A stretch of DNA of 64,000 nt from Nocardioides sp. HDW12B (GTDB lineage: Bacteria > Actinomycetota > Actinomycetes > Propionibacteriales > Nocardioidaceae): assembly GCF_011299595.1 (NCBI RefSeq), contig NZ_CP049867.1:558001-622000 (forward strand), written 5' to 3'. Shown one piece after another: positions 51,540-57,490 of the stretch. Both the position numbers and the translations under genes were made by a program. The notes under the pieces were generated by a model, which did not search any database, was not told the DNA's origin, and worked only from the letters and a program-made list of their open reading frames with translations. Every line of letters begins with the position of its first letter. The first letter of the stretch is position 1.

Positions 51540-51658
51540 GGCACTGCCCCTCGCCGGGGAGCGCCGTGCAGGTGTCCGCGGACGAGTACGCGCGATAAGC
51601 GGCCTCGCACTCACTGACGAGATCGACCCGCGGGGCTTGTCCGCGCCACCACAGGACT

Positions 51659-51709
51659 CCGACCGCTCATCGGCACGACCGCGCGGAACACGGCAGATCA
51701 GGGCGTTGG
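51659..51709 (-). repeat. Array repeat 1 (distal end)
   Basis: On the minus strand: CCAACGCCCT, GATCTGCCGTGTT, CCGCGCGGTCGTGCCGATGA, GCGGTC. It overlaps the last codons and stop (TGA of TGATCTGCC) of the P-loop gene. It aligns base for base with repeat 6 (54104-54153). A weaker CCGCTTATCGCGCG on the minus strand near 51597-51612 may be a decayed further copy; the rest of 51540-51658 holds nothing recognisable. Confidence 0.75.
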
Positions 51710-52144
51710 AGTCACGAGATCCTCGATGACGTCGGCGAGTTCGGATGGAGGACGTTGTCCGTCGAGTTCAAGGGCCCCTCGGCGCAAGAGTGGTTCGAGG
51801 GTGTCCACGTACCGCGCGATCTCGGCACGTTGCTCAGGGGTCTTGCCATAGGGGTTGTTCGTCCGTCTGCTCACTCGCTCGACCAGCACCGGAAGTGGCG
51901 CGCTGAGGAGCACGATGTGCTCGAAGCGGTCATAGAAGCGGCCTTGGTTCTCCACCGTCCCCGAGACGACCACATCATGGTTGGAAGCCAGAAGACGTTG
52001 CATACGTTCTTCGTCCCACGTGCCGTCAGGCAGTGCCCACCCGTCGTAGTCGGTGTCCACCGTCAGGTGTCCTCGACGTCGAAGCGCATCCAAGACAGTG
52101 GTCTTGCCCGCACCTGACATCCCCGTCACTAACACGCGCGCCAT
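51698..52144 (-). CDS. P-loop NTPase / adenylate kinase-like protein (cassette gene A)
   Basis: The 148-aa protein has a Walker A ARVLVTGMSGAGKTTVLDAL at the N-terminus, a lid-like VERVSRRTNNPYGKTPEQRA and EDLVTPTP at the end. It resembles small AAA_18/AAA_33 kinases (shikimate or adenylate kinase-like); the substrate is unknown. ATG 52144 begins the conserved strand; no Shine-Dalgarno precedes it. Leu5 is encoded by TTA. The stop lies inside array repeat 1. Confidence 0.75.
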   Translation of the reverse strand: MARVLVTGMSGAGKTTVLDALRRRGHLTVDTDYDGWALPDGTWDEERMQRLLASNHDVVVSGTVENQGRFYDRFEHIVLLSAPLPVLVERVSRRTNNPYGKTPEQRAEIARYVDTLEPLLRRGALELDGQRPPSELADVIEDLVTPTP

Positions 52145-52178
52145 GGCAAGAACGGTAGTGACCTGGCGACGAGCAGGT

Positions 52179-52220
52179 CCGGTCATCAGCATGACCGCAC
52201 TGTCGCGTCAGATAAGTGCC
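52179..52220 (-). repeat. Array repeat 2 (degenerate)
   Basis: The minus-strand sequence GGCACTTATCTGACGCGAC, AGTGCGGTCATGCTGATGAC, CGGACC aligns with the array consensus at about two thirds of positions. Its arms (GCACTTATC and GATGACCGGAC) are partly complementary. It lies between genes A and B, where a repeat is expected from the array pattern. Confidence 0.5.
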
Positions 52221-52277
52221 TTCGCGCAGCGATGGCTCGCCACCAGGCACAGAGGTCGTCTACGAGGCGTTCCACCG

Positions 52278-52682
52278 CTAAGGGCGAAAGCTGACGCGGA
52301 ACTCGGCGTGGACCTCGCTTTGCAACCGCTCAGCCAGTCGCCGCCCGCGTTCCTCCAGTGGCGGATGCGGCAGCTGACGATGGTGGTGTGCCGTGTCCAT
52401 GTCGCGCACCCACGCAAGTAGATCAGCGATGAGTGAGTCACTGAGGTCTAGCGCCTGCCGTAGCCATGAAGGGTCGTCAGGTAGCAGACCTCCCTCATCC
52501 CAGACGGGGCCGGCGCCCTCGTCCCACATGACTCGAAGCTTCGTGCCTTCGATAGTGGAGTCTGCCGCTTCGTCCCCTTCAGCGGTGGGTCCTTCAGCGT
52601 GAAACGATAAGTAGGTGTCAGCCGGGTAGTCGCCGGGGTGAGGCGGTGCTGGATCGTCCGGGCTGCACTCCATGGCCGCCAT
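52278..52682 (-). CDS. Hypothetical protein (cassette gene B)
   Basis: The 134-aa acidic protein (AAMECSPDDPAPPHPGDYPA at the start, then EGTKLRVMWDEGAGPVWDEG and a helical C-terminus RRLAERLQSEVHAEFRVSF) matches no family I recognise. ATG 52682, or the adjacent ATG 52673, is preferred; the longer frame starting MRAATLAR begins inside the array repeat and is an artefact. A TTA codon encodes Leu in DTYLSFH. Orientation matches the array. Confidence 0.6.
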   Translation of the reverse strand: MAAMECSPDDPAPPHPGDYPADTYLSFHAEGPTAEGDEAADSTIEGTKLRVMWDEGAGPVWDEGGLLPDDPSWLRQALDLSDSLIADLLAWVRDMDTAHHHRQLPHPPLEERGRRLAERLQSEVHAEFRVSFRP

Positions 52683-52704
52683 TTCACCAGAGAGGAAGCG
52701 AGCG

Positions 52705-52868
52705 GCACATGGGCACGGCCGCACATCGGTACGACCGCGCGGAACGCGGCAGATCCGGGCGAGCGTAGCCGCCCTCAACGCGGCAGATCCGGGCGAGCGT
52801 AGCCGCCCTCAACGCGGCAGATCCGGGCGAGCGTAGCCGCCCTCAACGCGGCAGATCCGGGTGCGTTC
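52705..52868 (-). repeat. Array repeat 3 with 34-bp tandem expansion
   Basis: A 34-bp unit, on the plus strand ACGCGGCAGATCCGGGCGAG then CGTAGCCGCCCTCA, occurs three times exactly (52744-52777, 52778-52811, 52812-52845), followed by a partial fourth copy (52846-52863). The left part (52723-52743) is the other half of the element, with CCGCGCGG and an altered CATCGGTACG. GCGGCAGAACCCGG at the end of gene C pairs with CCGGATCTGCCGC of the first repeat copy across the stop codon. Confidence 0.9.
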
Positions 52869-52870
52869 GC

Positions 52871-53116
52871 TCAACCGGGTTCTGCCGCTCGGACGACACC
52901 TGTCTCGTCGAGGAACAGCCTCAGTCGCTTTGGCCTCATGTCTGCAGTGATCGCTTCAACATCGGGATCGACCAGTTCAGGAGAGAAGCCCGCTTCAACG
53001 GCCCGGTCGAACGCAACGTCACCGGGCAACCCGATTAACTCGTCGCCGAGTACTGAACCGGCACGCAACGTCTCGGACAGCCGACGAGCACTTTCGTCCA
53101 TGCGCGTCCCATTCAC
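52871..53116 (-). CDS. Hypothetical protein (cassette gene C)
   Basis: The 81-aa acidic protein (ESARRLSETLRAGSVLGDEL, then DVAFDRAVEAGFSPELVDPD and PKRLRLFLDETGVVRAAEPG) is small and helix-rich; I recognise no family. GTG 53116 follows GGGATGG; ATG 53101 is an alternative. Leu in GDELIGL is encoded by TTA. The stop directly abuts array repeat 3, with which its last codons form a hairpin. Confidence 0.6.
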   Translation of the reverse strand: MNGTRMDESARRLSETLRAGSVLGDELIGLPGDVAFDRAVEAGFSPELVDPDVEAITADMRPKRLRLFLDETGVVRAAEPG

Positions 53117-53141
53117 TCATTCGACCATCCCATCACTCCTG

Positions 53142-53190
53142 AGCGCGCCCATCAGCACCACCGCGCGGAACGCGGCAGATCCGGACGCTC
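53142..53190 (-). repeat. Array repeat 4
   Basis: Minus strand: AGCGTCCGGATCTGCCGCG, TTCCGCGCGGTGGTGCTGAT, GGGCGCGCT. The arms AGCGTCC and GGGCGCGCT are only roughly complementary; the internal CCGCG-CGGAA-CGCGG hairpin is intact. It starts at the stop codon of gene D. Confidence 0.75.
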
Positions 53191-53633
53191 TAGTCGAGCT
53201 TCGTTTGAGTGTCGTTAACCGAGTCCGGTGCGTCCTCGTCGTGCTCCATCCCGTAGATGTCCAGGTCGAGGTGGATCGGGAAGGTTCCCAGGCGCGCTAA
53301 CAGGTCGGCGTCGAGGTCGACACCGCCCATGCCATCCACGTCGACGAAGCAGAACCAATCCATCGTGAAGCCGTCACCGGAGAGGTCCCGCAAGACTTCG
53401 CGGCGGTTCTCAACCTGCTCGAGCAGTGCCGAGAGGTGCTCCGTAAGTGGCCCACGTCCAAGGTGCTCTGTAGAAAGGCCCCACACTGCGCCCTTGCGCA
53501 CGTGACCGCTACGCCCGATGTCACCGGCCTCGTGGGAGAAGGTCGGCGTGATGCCAAGACGTTCGGTTATCTCGGACGAGCTCGTGCCGGGTCTCCAAAT
53601 CCGCAGGGTCGCGAAACACGTTGCTTGTGCCAT
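53190..53633 (-). CDS. DUF4279-like protein (cassette gene D)
   Basis: The 147-aa protein resembles DUF4279 (TCFATLRIWRPGTSSSEITE with LGITPT, RKGAVWGLSTEHLGRGPLTE, then IHLDLDIYGM near the end), a family found in bacterial immunity-type and other small loci. Function is unknown. ATG 53633 has no Shine-Dalgarno. One in-frame TTA (plus-strand 53298-53300) and an ATA codon stand out against neighbouring GC-rich codon use. It ends at repeat 4. Confidence 0.7.
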   Translation of the reverse strand: MAQATCFATLRIWRPGTSSSEITERLGITPTFSHEAGDIGRSGHVRKGAVWGLSTEHLGRGPLTEHLSALLEQVENRREVLRDLSGDGFTMDWFCFVDVDGMGGVDLDADLLARLGTFPIHLDLDIYGMEHDEDAPDSVNDTQTKLD

Positions 53634-53665
53634 AGACGGAAAGTCTGCCCGAGAGGAACACCCAC

Positions 53666-53713
53666 CCGTCCGCTTATCGGCACGACCGTGCGGATCGCGG
53701 CATGAGCGGACGG
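53666..53713 (-). repeat. Array repeat 5 (long perfect arms)
   Basis: Plus strand: CCGTCCGCTTAT (53666-53677) and ATGAGCGGACGG (53702-53713) are complementary over 12 bp with one T-G wobble, enclosing GCAC-GACC-GTGC. This copy has the longest outer stem of the family. It lies between the stop of gene E and the start of gene D. Confidence 0.85.
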
Positions 53714-53718
53714 TTTGC

Positions 53719-54096
53719 CTAGCCGCTGCTCGCCAGGAAGATCACCTCGTCGGGCTCAGACTTGTCGTTCCCCAGGACAGTCACGCGCACTGAACCAGCC
53801 TCAACGCCCAGCGACGCGTGCTCACGGTTGTAGACATCCCTGACGGACAGGTGCCCCTCCGACTCAATACGGAAGTCGCCGAGCGTCACGAGCCCTGACC
53901 CATCCATCACCTGCGTGAGCGAGGCCGATGTTGGGCCGTCATCGACGCTCAGGACTCCGACCGCGATGCAATCCGAACTCGACACACATACTTCGCCTGC
54001 AAAAGTCTGGGGCGGGGTGAACTCCTCACGCCCCACCAGCAGGAGTACCGAGTTGGGCGGCTCGATGAGGGGGCTCACCGGTTCATCTTCGCGCAT
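53719..54096 (-). CDS. Hypothetical protein (cassette gene E)
   Basis: The 125-aa protein is mostly beta (SPLIEPPNSVLLLVGREEFT, then SGLVTLGDFRIESEGHLSVR and SVRVTVLGNDKSEPDEVIFL). No family recognised. The ATG at 54096 follows array repeat 6 by few bases; a GTG nine codons in is an alternative start. It is read in the array direction and is divergent from gene F. Confidence 0.6.
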   Translation of the reverse strand: MREDEPVSPLIEPPNSVLLLVGREEFTPPQTFAGEVCVSSSDCIAVGVLSVDDGPTSASLTQVMDGSGLVTLGDFRIESEGHLSVRDVYNREHASLGVEAGSVRVTVLGNDKSEPDEVIFLASSG

Positions 54097-54103
54097 TGCG
54101 GCC

Positions 54104-54153
54104 CCGTCCGCTCATCGGCATGACCGCGCGGAACGCAGCAGACGAGTGCGTTG
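54104..54153 (-). repeat. Array repeat 6
   Basis: Minus strand: CCAACGCACTCGTCTGCTGC, GTTCCGCGCGGTCATGCCGA, TGAGCGGACGG. AACGCA and TGCGTT form a perfect inverted pair, and CCGCG-CGGAA-CGCAG a near-perfect inner hairpin. It keeps the array orientation although gene F beside it is reversed. Confidence 0.85.
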
Positions 54154-54182
54154 GGGGCCGGCGAGGCTGCCAGCATGTGGTC

Positions 54183-54548
54183 ATGCATCCACCCACGGGA
54201 ACAGCGGTGACCATCAGCGGCGGCTACGACTTCGAGCCCCAGTGGCTGGGCGGCAAGCAAGAAGTTGAAGGGCACGTCGAGAAGTGGATTCCCGGCCAGA
54301 ACACTCAGACAGCTTGTGTCGTTCGTCTTGACGAGTTTCTTACGGCCACCGGCGATGTGCGCGGCAAGCGCGAACAACGGACCGGGGTGTTCGTGGTACT
54401 CGAACTCCGGTACGTCGGGCAGGAGTGGGAGCACTCAGGAACTGCCCACGTCGAGTTGTGCGATGCCGAACCGGACGACAGGCCGTGGTCGGAACGCGAG
54501 GTCGGTGCGTGGGTGGAGTCGCATGCGACTTACGCATTCGCCGGTTGA
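54183..54548 (+). CDS. Hypothetical protein (cassette gene F, reversed)
   Basis: The 121-aa protein (VTISGGYDFEPQWLGGKQEV, LDEFLTATGDVRGKREQRTG, VFVVLELRYVGQEWEHSGTA, ending HATYAFAG) appears beta-rich and I recognise no family. ATG 54183 is chosen because upstream in-frame sequence lies in the repeat. It is the only gene of the eight read on the plus strand, while the repeats on both sides keep the common orientation. Confidence 0.6.
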   Translation: MHPPTGTAVTISGGYDFEPQWLGGKQEVEGHVEKWIPGQNTQTACVVRLDEFLTATGDVRGKREQRTGVFVVLELRYVGQEWEHSGTAHVELCDAEPDDRPWSEREVGAWVESHATYAFAG

Positions 54549-54550
54549 GG

Positions 54551-54600
54551 TAACGCACTCACTCGGCGTAGCCGCCCTCAACGTGGCAGATGAGTGGGTC
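54551..54600 (-). repeat. Array repeat 7
   Basis: Minus strand: GACCCACTCATCTGCCACG, TTGAGGGCGGCTACGCCGAG, TGAGTGCGTTA. CACTCA and TGAGTG form the outer arms; they replace the CCGCTCAT/ATGAGCGG arms of other copies with a new complementary pair. The 118 bp from here to the gene G stop contain no gene I can support. Confidence 0.75.
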
Positions 54601-54718
54601 CTATGCGACTTATCGCTAACGAAGTTCGTTGCAGTGGACGAGTCGCACGGGCGCGGTCTGGTGATTCGGCGTCGACCGCTCACATGGCTGCCCGGACACC
54701 GCCAGAGCGTCGTCTGAC

Positions 54719-55534
54719 TTATCGACCCGGCACTTCAGTTGGACGCCAGTTCCGCCTGGGCGGAATCCAGTCGAGCGCATCAGCTGCGGCGACGTCCGGC
54801 AGCACCACGACCGACTCGTCGTAGAGGTGCCATTCGTTGTGGGAGTAGGACTCGGCTGCAATCAGTAGTGAAGTCGACGCGTCGCCGTGAAGTAGCACCT
54901 CGGTGACCAAGCCCGGCGCGGAGCCGCCTTCAACCAAAGTGTCGAGCACGACCTCGACTTTCTTGATCCCGCCCACGACCAACGGGACATCCCGGCGCGA
55001 GCGGAGAGACCCATGGTCGGTCCCAGGCAACTGCAGGTCGACGTTCGAAACGAAGCTCAGCCCAAACACGGCATCGTCCTGGTAGATGCTGATCAAGAAG
55101 TCGCGATCGGAACCCCTTGCCCGGAGCCACGCGAAGGGCGTGCGGCCATCGGCTGGCATCGCCCACGCGAGTGCAACGTCGTCATCGCCAGACTCAAGTG
55201 CCCACTCCTCACCCTCCCAAGCGAGCACGTCTAACGAGGCCAGCAGCAGCGCTGCCGAGATGTTCTTCATGATCCATCCGTCGCCATCCGCCAAGTCAGC
55301 CGCTGCCAACAGATCAGCGACAGCTTCTCGGGTCATCGCCTCAAGTGCGTCCGGCGGTGGCAGGGCCCCTTCTCCGCGCGCCGCTGAGAACACCGGAAAG
55401 GCGCCACCGTCCTCGCGGAACACCGCCCAGACGTCTTCCTGCCGCAAAGTTGTAAACTCCCAACCAATCCCGTCGCGGGTGAGGACGTCGCTCGCCACCG
55501 TCACGAGCCACCGAGAGCGCCAATCAGAAGTCAC
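54719..55534 (-). CDS. Hypothetical protein (cassette gene G)
   Basis: The 271-aa protein is the largest cassette product (SDWRSRWLVTVASDVLTRDG, DLLAAADLADGDGWIMKNIS, GSDRDFLISIYQDDAVFGLS, ending WIPPRRNWRPTEVPGR). It has no signal peptide or membrane segment, and no family is recognised. GTG 55534 directly abuts repeat 8 and has no Shine-Dalgarno; TACGCT in the repeat is seven bases upstream, so a leaderless start is possible. Frames starting MRAATLARV read through the repeat. One Leu (in ASLDVL) is TTA. Confidence 0.65.
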   Translation of the reverse strand: MTSDWRSRWLVTVASDVLTRDGIGWEFTTLRQEDVWAVFREDGGAFPVFSAARGEGALPPPDALEAMTREAVADLLAAADLADGDGWIMKNISAALLLASLDVLAWEGEEWALESGDDDVALAWAMPADGRTPFAWLRARGSDRDFLISIYQDDAVFGLSFVSNVDLQLPGTDHGSLRSRRDVPLVVGGIKKVEVVLDTLVEGGSAPGLVTEVLLHGDASTSLLIAAESYSHNEWHLYDESVVVLPDVAAADALDWIPPRRNWRPTEVPGR

Positions 55535-55576
55535 CCGGGCGAGCGTAGCCGCCCTCAACGCGGCATGAGCGGTCGC
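55535..55576 (-). repeat. Array repeat 8
   Basis: Minus strand: GCGACCGCTCATGCCGCG, TTGAGGGCGGCTACGCTCGC, CCGG. It fills the whole 42-bp gap between the stop of gene H and the GTG of gene G. CCTCAAC near the end of gene H and GTTGAGG of the repeat form a perfect 7-bp inverted pair, with AGCGG/CCGCT inside. Confidence 0.85.
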
Positions 55577-55813
55577 TCAATCTTGCTGAGCCCGCTGGTT
55601 GAGGATGCTTACGAAGTACCTCGTGGACTGGCCCTGGCGCTCGGCCACCGCGTTGAGCCTCGCCGCCTCCTGGTCGGCGTCCCCGGCGTCAGAGAACGCC
55701 TTCATCAGCGCCACCCGCTGGTCAGGAGTCGTGCCTTCGTAGTCGTTGTACCGGACGACAACTGCTAACTCCCACGGGGGCGGCGGCCAGGGCTCGGGGA
55801 GGTTCGGACTCAC
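55577..55813 (-). CDS. Hypothetical protein (cassette gene H)
   Basis: The 78-aa protein starts SPNLPEPWPPPPWELAVVVR and continues YNDYEGTTPDQRVALMKAFS, DAGDADQEAARLNAVAERQG, ending STRYFVSILNQRAQQD. No family recognised. GTG 55813 is chosen over an in-frame ATG (55840) that lies closer to the repeat. There is no Shine-Dalgarno. The Leu of WELAVVV is TTA. It is the first cassette after the HNH gene. Confidence 0.6.
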   Translation of the reverse strand: MSPNLPEPWPPPPWELAVVVRYNDYEGTTPDQRVALMKAFSDAGDADQEAARLNAVAERQGQSTRYFVSILNQRAQQD

Positions 55814-55837
55814 AGGCCGAAGTCTGCCAGTCGGTCT

Positions 55838-55889
55838 CAACGCGTCGTCCGCTCATCGGCATGAGCGGACCCGTCGTGACGCGGGGTTG
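55838..55889 (-). repeat. Array repeat 9 (perfect hairpin)
   Basis: GTCCGCTCAT (55847-55856) and ATGAGCGGAC (55861-55870) are perfectly complementary around a CGGC loop. Outside them CAACGCGTC (55838-55846) pairs with GACGCGGGGTTG (55878-55889) except for an extra GGG, giving an extrahelical bulge. This copy marks the start of the array, 48 bp after the HNH gene. Confidence 0.85.
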
Positions 55890-55936
55890 CGTGGGTGATC
55901 GCACGCCTCGACGGTGCGAGCGTGCGCCGCGCAGTG

Positions 55937-57490
55937 TCAGGGCAGGTCGAGAGCGGTGGTGCCGGAGGGAGTGACGAGGTAGCGGCGCCCGAGAGGGCTG
56001 GTCCAGGTGAGGTGGCCGGTGACCGGGTCGCGCTCGACGGTCCAGTCGCCGTTGGTCTTGAGCCGGTGGTGGAAGCGGCACAGCCGCGACAAGTTCGACG
56101 TCCGGGTCTGATCGGGTGGACCGCCCTCGTCGGGTGGTCGCCAGGGTTCGAGGTGGTCGAGGTCGTGCCGCCCGGCGTTGCCGCACCACGGGAAGGTGCA
56201 CGTGGCGTCGCGCTCGACTACCTGTCGGCGCAGCCGGGGCGGGATCTCGTAGGAGTCGACCGCGATCTCGGCGGTCTGGTCGACGACGGGAATGACCGTG
56301 AGCCGTGCGCCGGGTGTGAGCCCGGCCAGCCAGCGCTCGAGCGTCGCGGTCGTCCGGGCTCCGAGCCGGAGCCCGGCCCGGTCGACGCGGATCAGGTCCG
56401 CGACGTCGTCGGCGATCTCGGCGTCTCCGGACGGCGCCGTGCGCGCGGCGTCCGAGCCGGACTCGGCGCCGCCACTCGTGACCAGGGTCCGCAAGGCGTC
56501 GAGGTGCAGGTGGAGGTGGAGGGTCGGCACCAGTCGCGTGGGCCGAACCGGCCGCCGCTGGATACCAGCTACCTCGTCCCGCTGCTGTGCCAGCTGCTCC
56601 GCGGCGCGGTCGAGGTCGAGGGAGTACTGCGGGTCGGCCAGCACACCGAGGGCCCGGGCGCGCCGGACCTCGCGCCGGTCACCGTCACCGAGCGCGCCCA
56701 GCGTCGTCGCCACGGCGTCTAGGGCGTGGTCCAGGGCGTGGGCGTCGGGAGTGTCCAGCAGAGCCGCGAGGTCGGTGGTGCCGTCCAACCGGTCCTCGAA
56801 CCACACCCCTCGCTTCTCCGCCGCCGCAGCGTCCCGCTCCGCCGCCAGCTCGGGCTCCAGCCGGAGGGTCGCCGCGTCGACGGCCCGGTCGATGCGTCCG
56901 ACGGAGAGCCGACCCGCGAACGGCGCCAGCGAGGCGTCCACCGCGTCGGCGGTCGCCGCCTCCAGCGGGATGGTGCGCTCGGCGATCCGGCGCGCCTTCC
57001 ACGCGGGGAGCGCGCCGCCCATGACCTGGGCCCAGCAGCGGGGGAGGCGGTCGCGGAGCTCGACGGCCTGTCCGACGTACGCCCGACCGGCGGCCTCGCC
57101 GAGGCCGAGCGCGGTCGCGAGCTCGGAGACCGCGTACTCCTCGACCATGAACGCGCCCTCGCCCGCCGAGCGCAGCACGCCCTCGACGCCCTGCGCGGCC
57201 GCCGACGCCTTCACGAAGCCGTCGCGTCCGACCAGGGAGTCGCTGACGTCCTGGTGCGCGGCGCCGATGAGTCCCTGAGCGATGTCGGCGCGGCCGACGC
57301 GGTGGAGGTCGGCCCAGTGCGCGACGCCGCGCAGCTCGCGCGCCGCGGCCAGGTCCTGCGCCCGACGCTGTCCCACGACCCAGCCCAGCGCGTCGGCCGC
57401 GTCCAGCCCGAGGACCTCGGCGTCCTCGCTCGACCCCGCCACCGGTGCCGGCGGCGCCACCCGTCGGCGCTGGAGAGGGGTCGTCGTCAT
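55937..57490 (-). CDS. DUF222 domain HNH endonuclease
   Basis: The 517-aa protein has an N-terminal DUF222 region (about 30-360; GVAHWADLHRVGRADIAQGL, VGQAVELRDRLPRCWAQVMG) and a C-terminal HNH motif: RDATCTFPWCGNAGRHDLDH, LEPWRPPDEGGP and NLSRLCRFHHRLKTNGDW, with His/Asn/His and the zinc-type Cys residues. These '13E12 repeat' proteins are abundant and repeated in Nocardioides-type genomes; their role is unclear, with some suggestion of mobility. The gene borders the cassette array and diverges from alr. Whether it has anything to do with the array is unknown. Confidence 0.9.
   Translation of the reverse strand: MTTTPLQRRRVAPPAPVAGSSEDAEVLGLDAADALGWVVGQRRAQDLAAARELRGVAHWADLHRVGRADIAQGLIGAAHQDVSDSLVGRDGFVKASAAAQGVEGVLRSAGEGAFMVEEYAVSELATALGLGEAAGRAYVGQAVELRDRLPRCWAQVMGGALPAWKARRIAERTIPLEAATADAVDASLAPFAGRLSVGRIDRAVDAATLRLEPELAAERDAAAAEKRGVWFEDRLDGTTDLAALLDTPDAHALDHALDAVATTLGALGDGDRREVRRARALGVLADPQYSLDLDRAAEQLAQQRDEVAGIQRRPVRPTRLVPTLHLHLHLDALRTLVTSGGAESGSDAARTAPSGDAEIADDVADLIRVDRAGLRLGARTTATLERWLAGLTPGARLTVIPVVDQTAEIAVDSYEIPPRLRRQVVERDATCTFPWCGNAGRHDLDHLEPWRPPDEGGPPDQTRTSNLSRLCRFHHRLKTNGDWTVERDPVTGHLTWTSPLGRRYLVTPSGTTALDLP

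Follow-up and report, generated by a model that had tools for sequence, protein, structure and literature searches.

The window analysed here, 64,000 nucleotides at positions 558,001-622,000 of the closed 4.19-Mb genome of Nocardioides sp. HDW12B (genome G000), contains an array at 51,660-55,871 in which nine co-oriented copies of a repeat alternate with eight gene units. We conclude that this is very probably an acquired array without its integrase, part of a cassette-capture system of Actinomycetes in which a Xer-type integrase would exchange strands across a (T/G)CGGCA core; such a system would be integron-like, but not an integron. An earlier reading of the window (the original prediction) had described nine repeats alternating with eight genes, with all repeats pointing the same way and one gene reversed, and this was borne out by the coordinates. 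Its description of a cassette-like array of mainly single-gene units was likewise supported.

Core sites and cassette boundaries

Comparison of sequences established the site, its direction and the cassette boundaries. In each repeat, inverted arms, CGnCCGCTCA and TGAGCGGACG, enclose one or two directional (T/G)CGGCA cores, and the commonest form of the repeat is CGnCCGCTCA-TCGGCA-TGACCGCGCGGATC-GCGGCA-TGAGCGGACGTT. Among 166 copies scoring at least 20 bits, TCGGCA was exact in 131 and the second core in 155. We interpret the double-core form as a pair of sites flanking a gene-less unit of 20-26 bp. The repeat family of the original prediction was thus real, and its single-repeat unit needed correction, what was described as one repeat being usually a pair of core sites that flank a 20-bp spacer. 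Tandem gene-less units of 34 bp are present in G628 as well as in the window. The window's unit, GATCCGGGCGAGCGTAGCCGCCCTCAACGCGGCA, was found unchanged in G003 and G032; other genera and a Microbacterium plasmid have it too. The repeats are able to form hairpins. The arm pairing inside the repeat was reached by 103 of 500 shuffles, and this lack of excess is what would be seen were the two arms parts of adjacent cassettes. A hairpin-RNA element was rejected, as an Rfam search with the repeat matched no family. A second repeated string, GTGTCGCACATCA, was seen in arrays of G047 and G057 (loci L061, L062, L077, and L047), in some copies replacing the usual left arm.

Cassette boundaries were examined in homologous cassettes from unrelated arrays, using 15 blocks chosen for having both ends no more than 70 bp from repeats. 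Five blocks comprised gene-less units only, and ten carried more; in eight of these ten gene-cassette blocks, both ends lay within ~12 bp of the core (CGGCA). A 620-bp block shared by two G047 arrays at 99.7% identity broke exactly at TCGGCA on both sides, and further blocks were found at 88.6% identity for G688, at 86% between G025 and G688, and at 93.6% between G054 and G057. The sequence 3′ of the core was common to both arrays at the upstream end of a block, but not at its downstream end (clear cases were L065/L077, L080/L081, L046/L080, and L038/L047). Because the post-core sequence is shared at the block start and different at its end, the exchange point is placed at the core; this pattern is the reverse of that predicted for crossover at the G^TT of an attC site.

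A blastn search of 58 relatives, made without a profile, matched the repeat at unrelated loci. Our first covariance model held two pairs only and at E ≤ 0.05 matched 58 of 58 relatives; later counts were made at E ≤ 1e-5 or 1e-4 with a site profile built from 44 repeat copies, four of them from the window. In the 64-kb window this profile gave 11 matches of at least 8 bits, all 11 inside the array and on the plus strand, and no match of that score in the window outside the array or in the reversed window. Of the 391 genomes sampled in the order Propionibacteriales, 97 had matches at E ≤ 1e-5; across the phylum, 5 of 396 sampled genomes had matches at E ≤ 1e-4 (G000 included in both). Two large arrays, with 30 matches in ~17 kb (G688) and 28 in a 15.4-kb contig (G663), each ran in one direction, and at 33 loci with at least four copies, 275 of 289 copies lay in the majority direction. 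At three of the four mixed-direction loci, the recombinase described below lay between converging runs. When 233 intervals of 200-1600 bp were examined with a simple GC3 (third-codon-position GC) caller, one open reading frame (ORF) was found in 121 and none in 80; in 128 intervals with a main ORF, 71 were antisense and 57 sense to the sites, which is near random. On the Microbacterium plasmid pYJNG (NZ_CP060403.1; L216, 8007-8560), from another order, a gene lay between such sites, with the window's 34-bp unit before it.

Mobile elements were also found near the sites. Eight genes of the insertion sequence (IS) type IS110 lay near repeats; six of the eight elements were inserted exactly at CGG^C of the core (L031, L035, two in L053, L086, and L098), and the remaining two copies (L052 and L096) were not. 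IS5-like transposase genes or fragments occurred near the leading end of arrays L040, L041, L044, L052, and L055, but an IS5-type transposase was rejected as the driver, being present at some array ends and not generally. A phage origin was also rejected: an exact 19-base pattern occurred in seven IMG/VR contigs as one isolated match each, and alignment of the integrase gave one weak match.

The linked tyrosine recombinase

The original prediction had proposed looking for a tyrosine recombinase with the same repeat beside it, and protein clustering near arrays returned one recurrent family, encoded in the arrays of other genomes. Its linkage to the sites was established by comparing loci. Members of at least 60% identity were present in 15 of 40 genomes searched, and repeats were found at all 15 of those loci. 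Among 26 repeat-bearing genomes, 14 had a member, G015 had a broken relative (35-51% identity) beside repeats, and 11 had none. Of 14 genomes selected for their lack of repeats, one (G482) carried a member, and its locus turned out to contain weak repeats. Six loci held distant homologues (37-44%); four of them were without repeats and two had four weak repeats between them. The nearest 3′-side repeat was opposite to the recombinase gene in 12 of the 14 loci having one, and long open frames were present in eight of the 15 copies. In G000, the linked family gave 0 matches at E ≤ 1e-20, in agreement with the predicted absence of an integrase.

The member P0001, from Nocardioides currus, contains a PF00589 domain (E 1.2e-22). 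When the R-K-H-R-H-Y residues were checked in eight aligned members, the R, K, H-x-x-R, and H were invariant, and the Tyr was Asp in L103. P0001 scored 53.6 bits with the IntI model TIGR02249 (cut-off 265), and five further members scored 43-63 bits; with the XerC and XerD equivalog models, P0001 scored 117.8 and 120.0 bits, respectively, against cut-offs of 335 and 330. Its identity to XerC and XerD of G000 was 29-32%, the closest solved structure by sequence was XerD, and ~28 residues of the IntI1 catalytic domain had no counterpart in five aligned members. In a tree, 56 members formed one clade with a support of 99/99, apart from XerC, XerD, IntI1, and the distant homologues, and clade members were mostly grouped by host family. 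A plasmid origin of the integrase was rejected, the best identity among 17 plasmid records being 42.5%.

A scan of 84,980 species genomes yielded 130 relatives of the recombinase, of which the best 80 were kept; some of the loci in this set come from one genome or from genomes closely related to each other. Among these best 80 of 130 were relatives in Nocardioides, Kribbella, Pimelobacter, Planotetraspora, Amycolatopsis, Kibdelosporangium, Lentzea, Nocardia, Actinoplanes, Actinomadura, Kineococcus, Motilibacter, Cellulomonas, Tessaracoccus, and others. TGCCGA, which is the core read on the opposite strand, lay no more than 75 nt from the recombinase stop codon in 38 of the 76 loci with enough sequence, as compared with 4 of 76 for TCGGCA, 2 of 76 for the reversed string, and 9 of 265 for stretches 0.6-3 kb further downstream. 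Of 89 site matches scoring 11 bits or more at 48 loci outside Propionibacteriales by name (four of them from metagenome-assembled genomes whose assignment is broad or doubtful), 86 were opposite to the integrase; the reversed sequence gave 0 matches, and other loci gave three in 285 kb.

It could be argued that host XerCD moves the units in trans, as it does on the dif modules of Acinetobacter, and that the linked recombinase is a passenger cassette. Consistent with this, the core of the palindromic site is short, the integrase is missing from many arrays (11 of the 26 genomes tested lack it), and a recent exchange took place in G047, which has none. We nevertheless consider this explanation improbable, because one recombinase clade (99/99) accompanies the sites in many families and has a single such site at the stop codon of its own gene, and because the sites run in one direction, whereas those of dif modules alternate.

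The favoured identification in the original prediction, a true integron array without its integrase (CALIN) whose attC sites are recombined by IntI, now appears highly unlikely. The overall layout is alike, the repeats end in CGTT, and several copies have complementary outer flanks, such as CTCCGAC/GTTGGAG in site 1. However, this complementarity was reached by 602 of 2000 sets of re-paired flanks, IntI above the cut-off was found in 0 of 117 Propionibacteriales genomes, the linked enzyme falls far below the IntI cut-off (53.6 bits vs 265) and is without the IntI1 insertion, crossover maps to the central CGGCA and not to G^TT, and cassette gene orientation is near random (71 vs 57). Integron cassettes have a strong gene-orientation bias. 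Membership in the integrons was thus not upheld, while two further points of the original prediction were: that the repeat ends match RYYYAAC/GTTRRRY poorly, and that a different gene-capture system might be involved. A Propionibacteriales genome carries a class 1 intI in truncated form at L207 (G505:C12:97900-98700; 242.7 bits, positions 1-201 of 315).

Insertion and layout of the array in the window

Comparison with relatives established an insertion at this locus. In six of the seven relatives compared here (G001-G004, G011, and G015), nnr and alr are adjacent with no array between them, and the seventh, G014, has a different ~1.9-kb insert there, without repeats. Because nnr and alr are adjacent in relatives, the window array is regarded as an insertion. 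The GC content of the array is 63.9%, as compared with a mean of 72.3%, and lies below that of all 120 sliding 4.2-kb stretches of the window. When the whole G000 genome was searched with the profile at E ≤ 1e-5, five of six matches fell inside the array and the sixth adjoined a NUDIX gene unit; NUDIX units of the same protein cluster lie near repeats in G015 and G459 too. Thus, neither of the findings that the original prediction had named as contrary to its view, a fixed gene order in relatives and repeats scattered genome-wide without a link to gene ends, was made. In G015 (L044), a different small array was observed nearby, between nnr and acpS, so that the same neighbourhood has been hit twice.

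That the repeats are elements resembling miniature inverted-repeat transposable elements or repetitive extragenic palindromes, or terminators of a static gene cluster whose shared genes spread via homologous recombination, would suit hairpin-capable repeats at gene ends with stops near the sites, but is very doubtful given that almost all copies are co-directional, the 5-6-bp core at which exchange blocks between families end is too short for homologous recombination, Rfam gave no match, the array is missing at nnr-alr in six of seven relatives, and a recombinase family is linked.

The array lies between nnr and a DUF222-HNH gene (55937-57490). Seven of its eight cassette genes are on the minus strand and one (54183-54548) is on the plus strand; a protein family was assigned to two of the eight, a P-loop kinase (AAA_18) and DUF4279. 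All nine sites are on the plus strand. The repeat copies are listed below with their approximate limits; where these differ, the annotated sites span 51660-51708 (site 1), 52174-52224 (site 2), 52716-52764 (site 3), 53667-53715 (site 5), 54105-54153 (site 6), 55537-55582 (site 8), and 55844-55871 (site 9). Site 1 (~51656-51711) reads CTCATCGGCA, CGACCGCGCGGAACACGGCA, and GATCAGGGCGTT in turn, with core ends at 51675 and 51695, and its right arm contains the stop codon of cassette gene 1 (51698-52144, minus), the P-loop kinase gene. Site 2 (~52171-52226) has degenerate cores (CATCAGCA and GCGTCA); cassette gene 2 (52278-52673, minus; no family) lies in an ORF open to 52778, and its start was chosen by eye. 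Site 3 (~52710-52763; core ends 52731, with CGGTA, and 52751) is followed by three of the gene-less 34-bp units (52752-52853, plus) and by cassette gene 3 (52871-53116, minus; no family above cut-off). Site 4 (53141-53194; core ends 53157, with CAGCA, and 53177) adjoins the DUF4279 gene, cassette gene 4 (53190-53633, minus; PF14106, E 1.1e-13), and site 5 (~53664-53717; core ends 53682 and 53702) adjoins cassette gene 5 (53719-54096, minus; no family). After site 6 (~54103-54154; core ends 54120 and 54140, the latter with CAGCA) comes the sole gene of opposite orientation, cassette gene 6 (54183-54548, plus; no family), whose start was also chosen by eye. Site 7 (54547-54604) again has degenerate cores, ending at 54568 (CGGCG) and 54588 (TGGCA), and cassette gene 7 (54719-55534, minus; no family), with a start chosen by eye, lies in an ORF open to 55558. 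Site 8 (~55527-55582) comprises the end of a 34-bp unit, a core ending at 55565, and the right arm TGAGCGGTCG, and is followed by cassette gene 8 (55577-55840, minus; no family). Site 9 (~55844-55864; core end 55861) has a single core and forms the near-perfect palindrome CGTCCGCTCAT-CGGC-ATGAGCGGAC.

A defence role for the window cassettes was rejected, as PADLOC gave weak P-loop matches for gene 1 and none for the other seven. DUF222-HNH genes, which are common in these genomes, adjoin several arrays besides that of the window (L076, 12985-14496; L044, 5130-6416; L031, 4215-5567; L043, 13346-14740; L093, 13156-14448); such a gene was rejected as the driver of the array because it adjoins some arrays only, no test of enrichment having been made.

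Proposed mechanism and comparison with known systems

Most likely, short sites composed of two inverted arms and a directional (T/G)CGGCA core are recombined by a tyrosine recombinase of the Xer type, whose gene lies in complete arrays of other genomes. A cassette would be the DNA from core to core, consisting of a right arm, usually one gene in either orientation, a left arm, and the core, and core-core recombination would lead to the excision, insertion, and reshuffling of cassettes. The sites of an array would point one way because the core is directional. Gene-less cassettes of 20-34 bp would explain both why the repeat looks double-cored and why 34-bp units stand in tandem. We infer strand exchange by the linked enzyme, circular intermediates, and the direction of insertion; the single site beside the integrase would be a candidate entry site. 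The window array, which has no resident integrase, would have inserted between nnr and alr either by itself or together with the adjacent HNH gene. Cassette movement in integrase-less genomes (G047 and G000) may reflect recent loss of the enzyme, its supply in trans, or XerCD.

Several observations weigh against this mechanism. The integrase is missing from G000 and from 10 other repeat-bearing genomes of the 26, and G047 carries its 99.7% identical cassette in two arrays without an integrase. Seven of the 15 recombinase copies are broken; in addition, the open frame of L103 (1036-1950, Kribbella antiqua) has Asp at the catalytic Tyr, L099 is without ~33 N-terminal codons, in frame, and the orientation rule is broken by L104 and L108. 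Two of the ten gene-cassette blocks (74% and 70% identity) end within the cassette, and an automated test of 25 cassette pairs gave arm identities just slightly above background, a consequence of the misplacement of many weak sites; the evidence for the boundaries comes from blocks inspected one at a time. TGCCGA was not found near the stop in 38 of the 76 loci, mainly those of Tessaracoccus, Propioniciclava, Ornithinimicrobium, and Terrabacter, and these families may use another site or may have lost it.

We also think it likely, though with less confidence than for the window array itself, that Actinomycetes possess an independent counterpart of the integron, in which a conserved Xer-like integrase clade has a single core site at its 3′ end and cassettes are exchanged at the 6-bp (T/G)CGGCA on palindromic, probably double-stranded sites, crossing families and reaching plasmids, and in which dedicated IS110 elements are parasites of the core. 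No published description of such a cassette system was found in open-access PubMed Central; subscription papers may hold one. Integrons are the textbook platform for single-gene capture by bacteria, and an independent counterpart, if true, would explain why they seemed nearly absent from this phylum. A second capture platform in Nocardioides, Kribbella, Nocardia, Amycolatopsis, Actinoplanes, and others would give access to a large pool of mobile genes, as yet uncharacterised, in soil bacteria and antibiotic producers, would let two independent solutions to gene capture be compared directly, and would supply DNA engineering with a new directional pair of recombinase and site.

The system resembles integrons and CALINs in its one-direction arrays of mostly single-gene cassettes, its dedicated tyrosine recombinase with a candidate entry site at the enzyme gene, the existence of integrase-less arrays, cassettes mostly of unknown function, and a site targeted by IS110/IS1111-type elements; IS1111-type elements that target the attC sites of integrons have been described (PMC11187229). 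Unlike in integrons, the recombinase is not IntI, the core is central in a palindromic site and not a G^TT at the site end, there is no sign of covariation between left and right arms, cassette genes lie in either orientation, the entry-type site is at the 3′ end of the integrase, and the hosts are Actinomycetes. The IntegronFinder 2.0 survey reported no complete integrons in Actinobacteria (PMC9024848). The dif/pdif modules of Acinetobacter, which lie between short Xer-type palindromic sites and cluster as arrays (PMC12907356), are alike in both respects and depend on XerCD; the present system differs in having its own recombinase in or beside arrays, one-direction sites, a different site sequence, and Actinomycetes as hosts. 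XerH is a single Xer-like recombinase linked to its site. XerS/difSL likewise comprises one Xer-like recombinase genetically linked to its site (PMC2731167), an arrangement shared by the system described here. XerS and XerH, however, resolve chromosome dimers, whereas here many sites carry gene cassettes.

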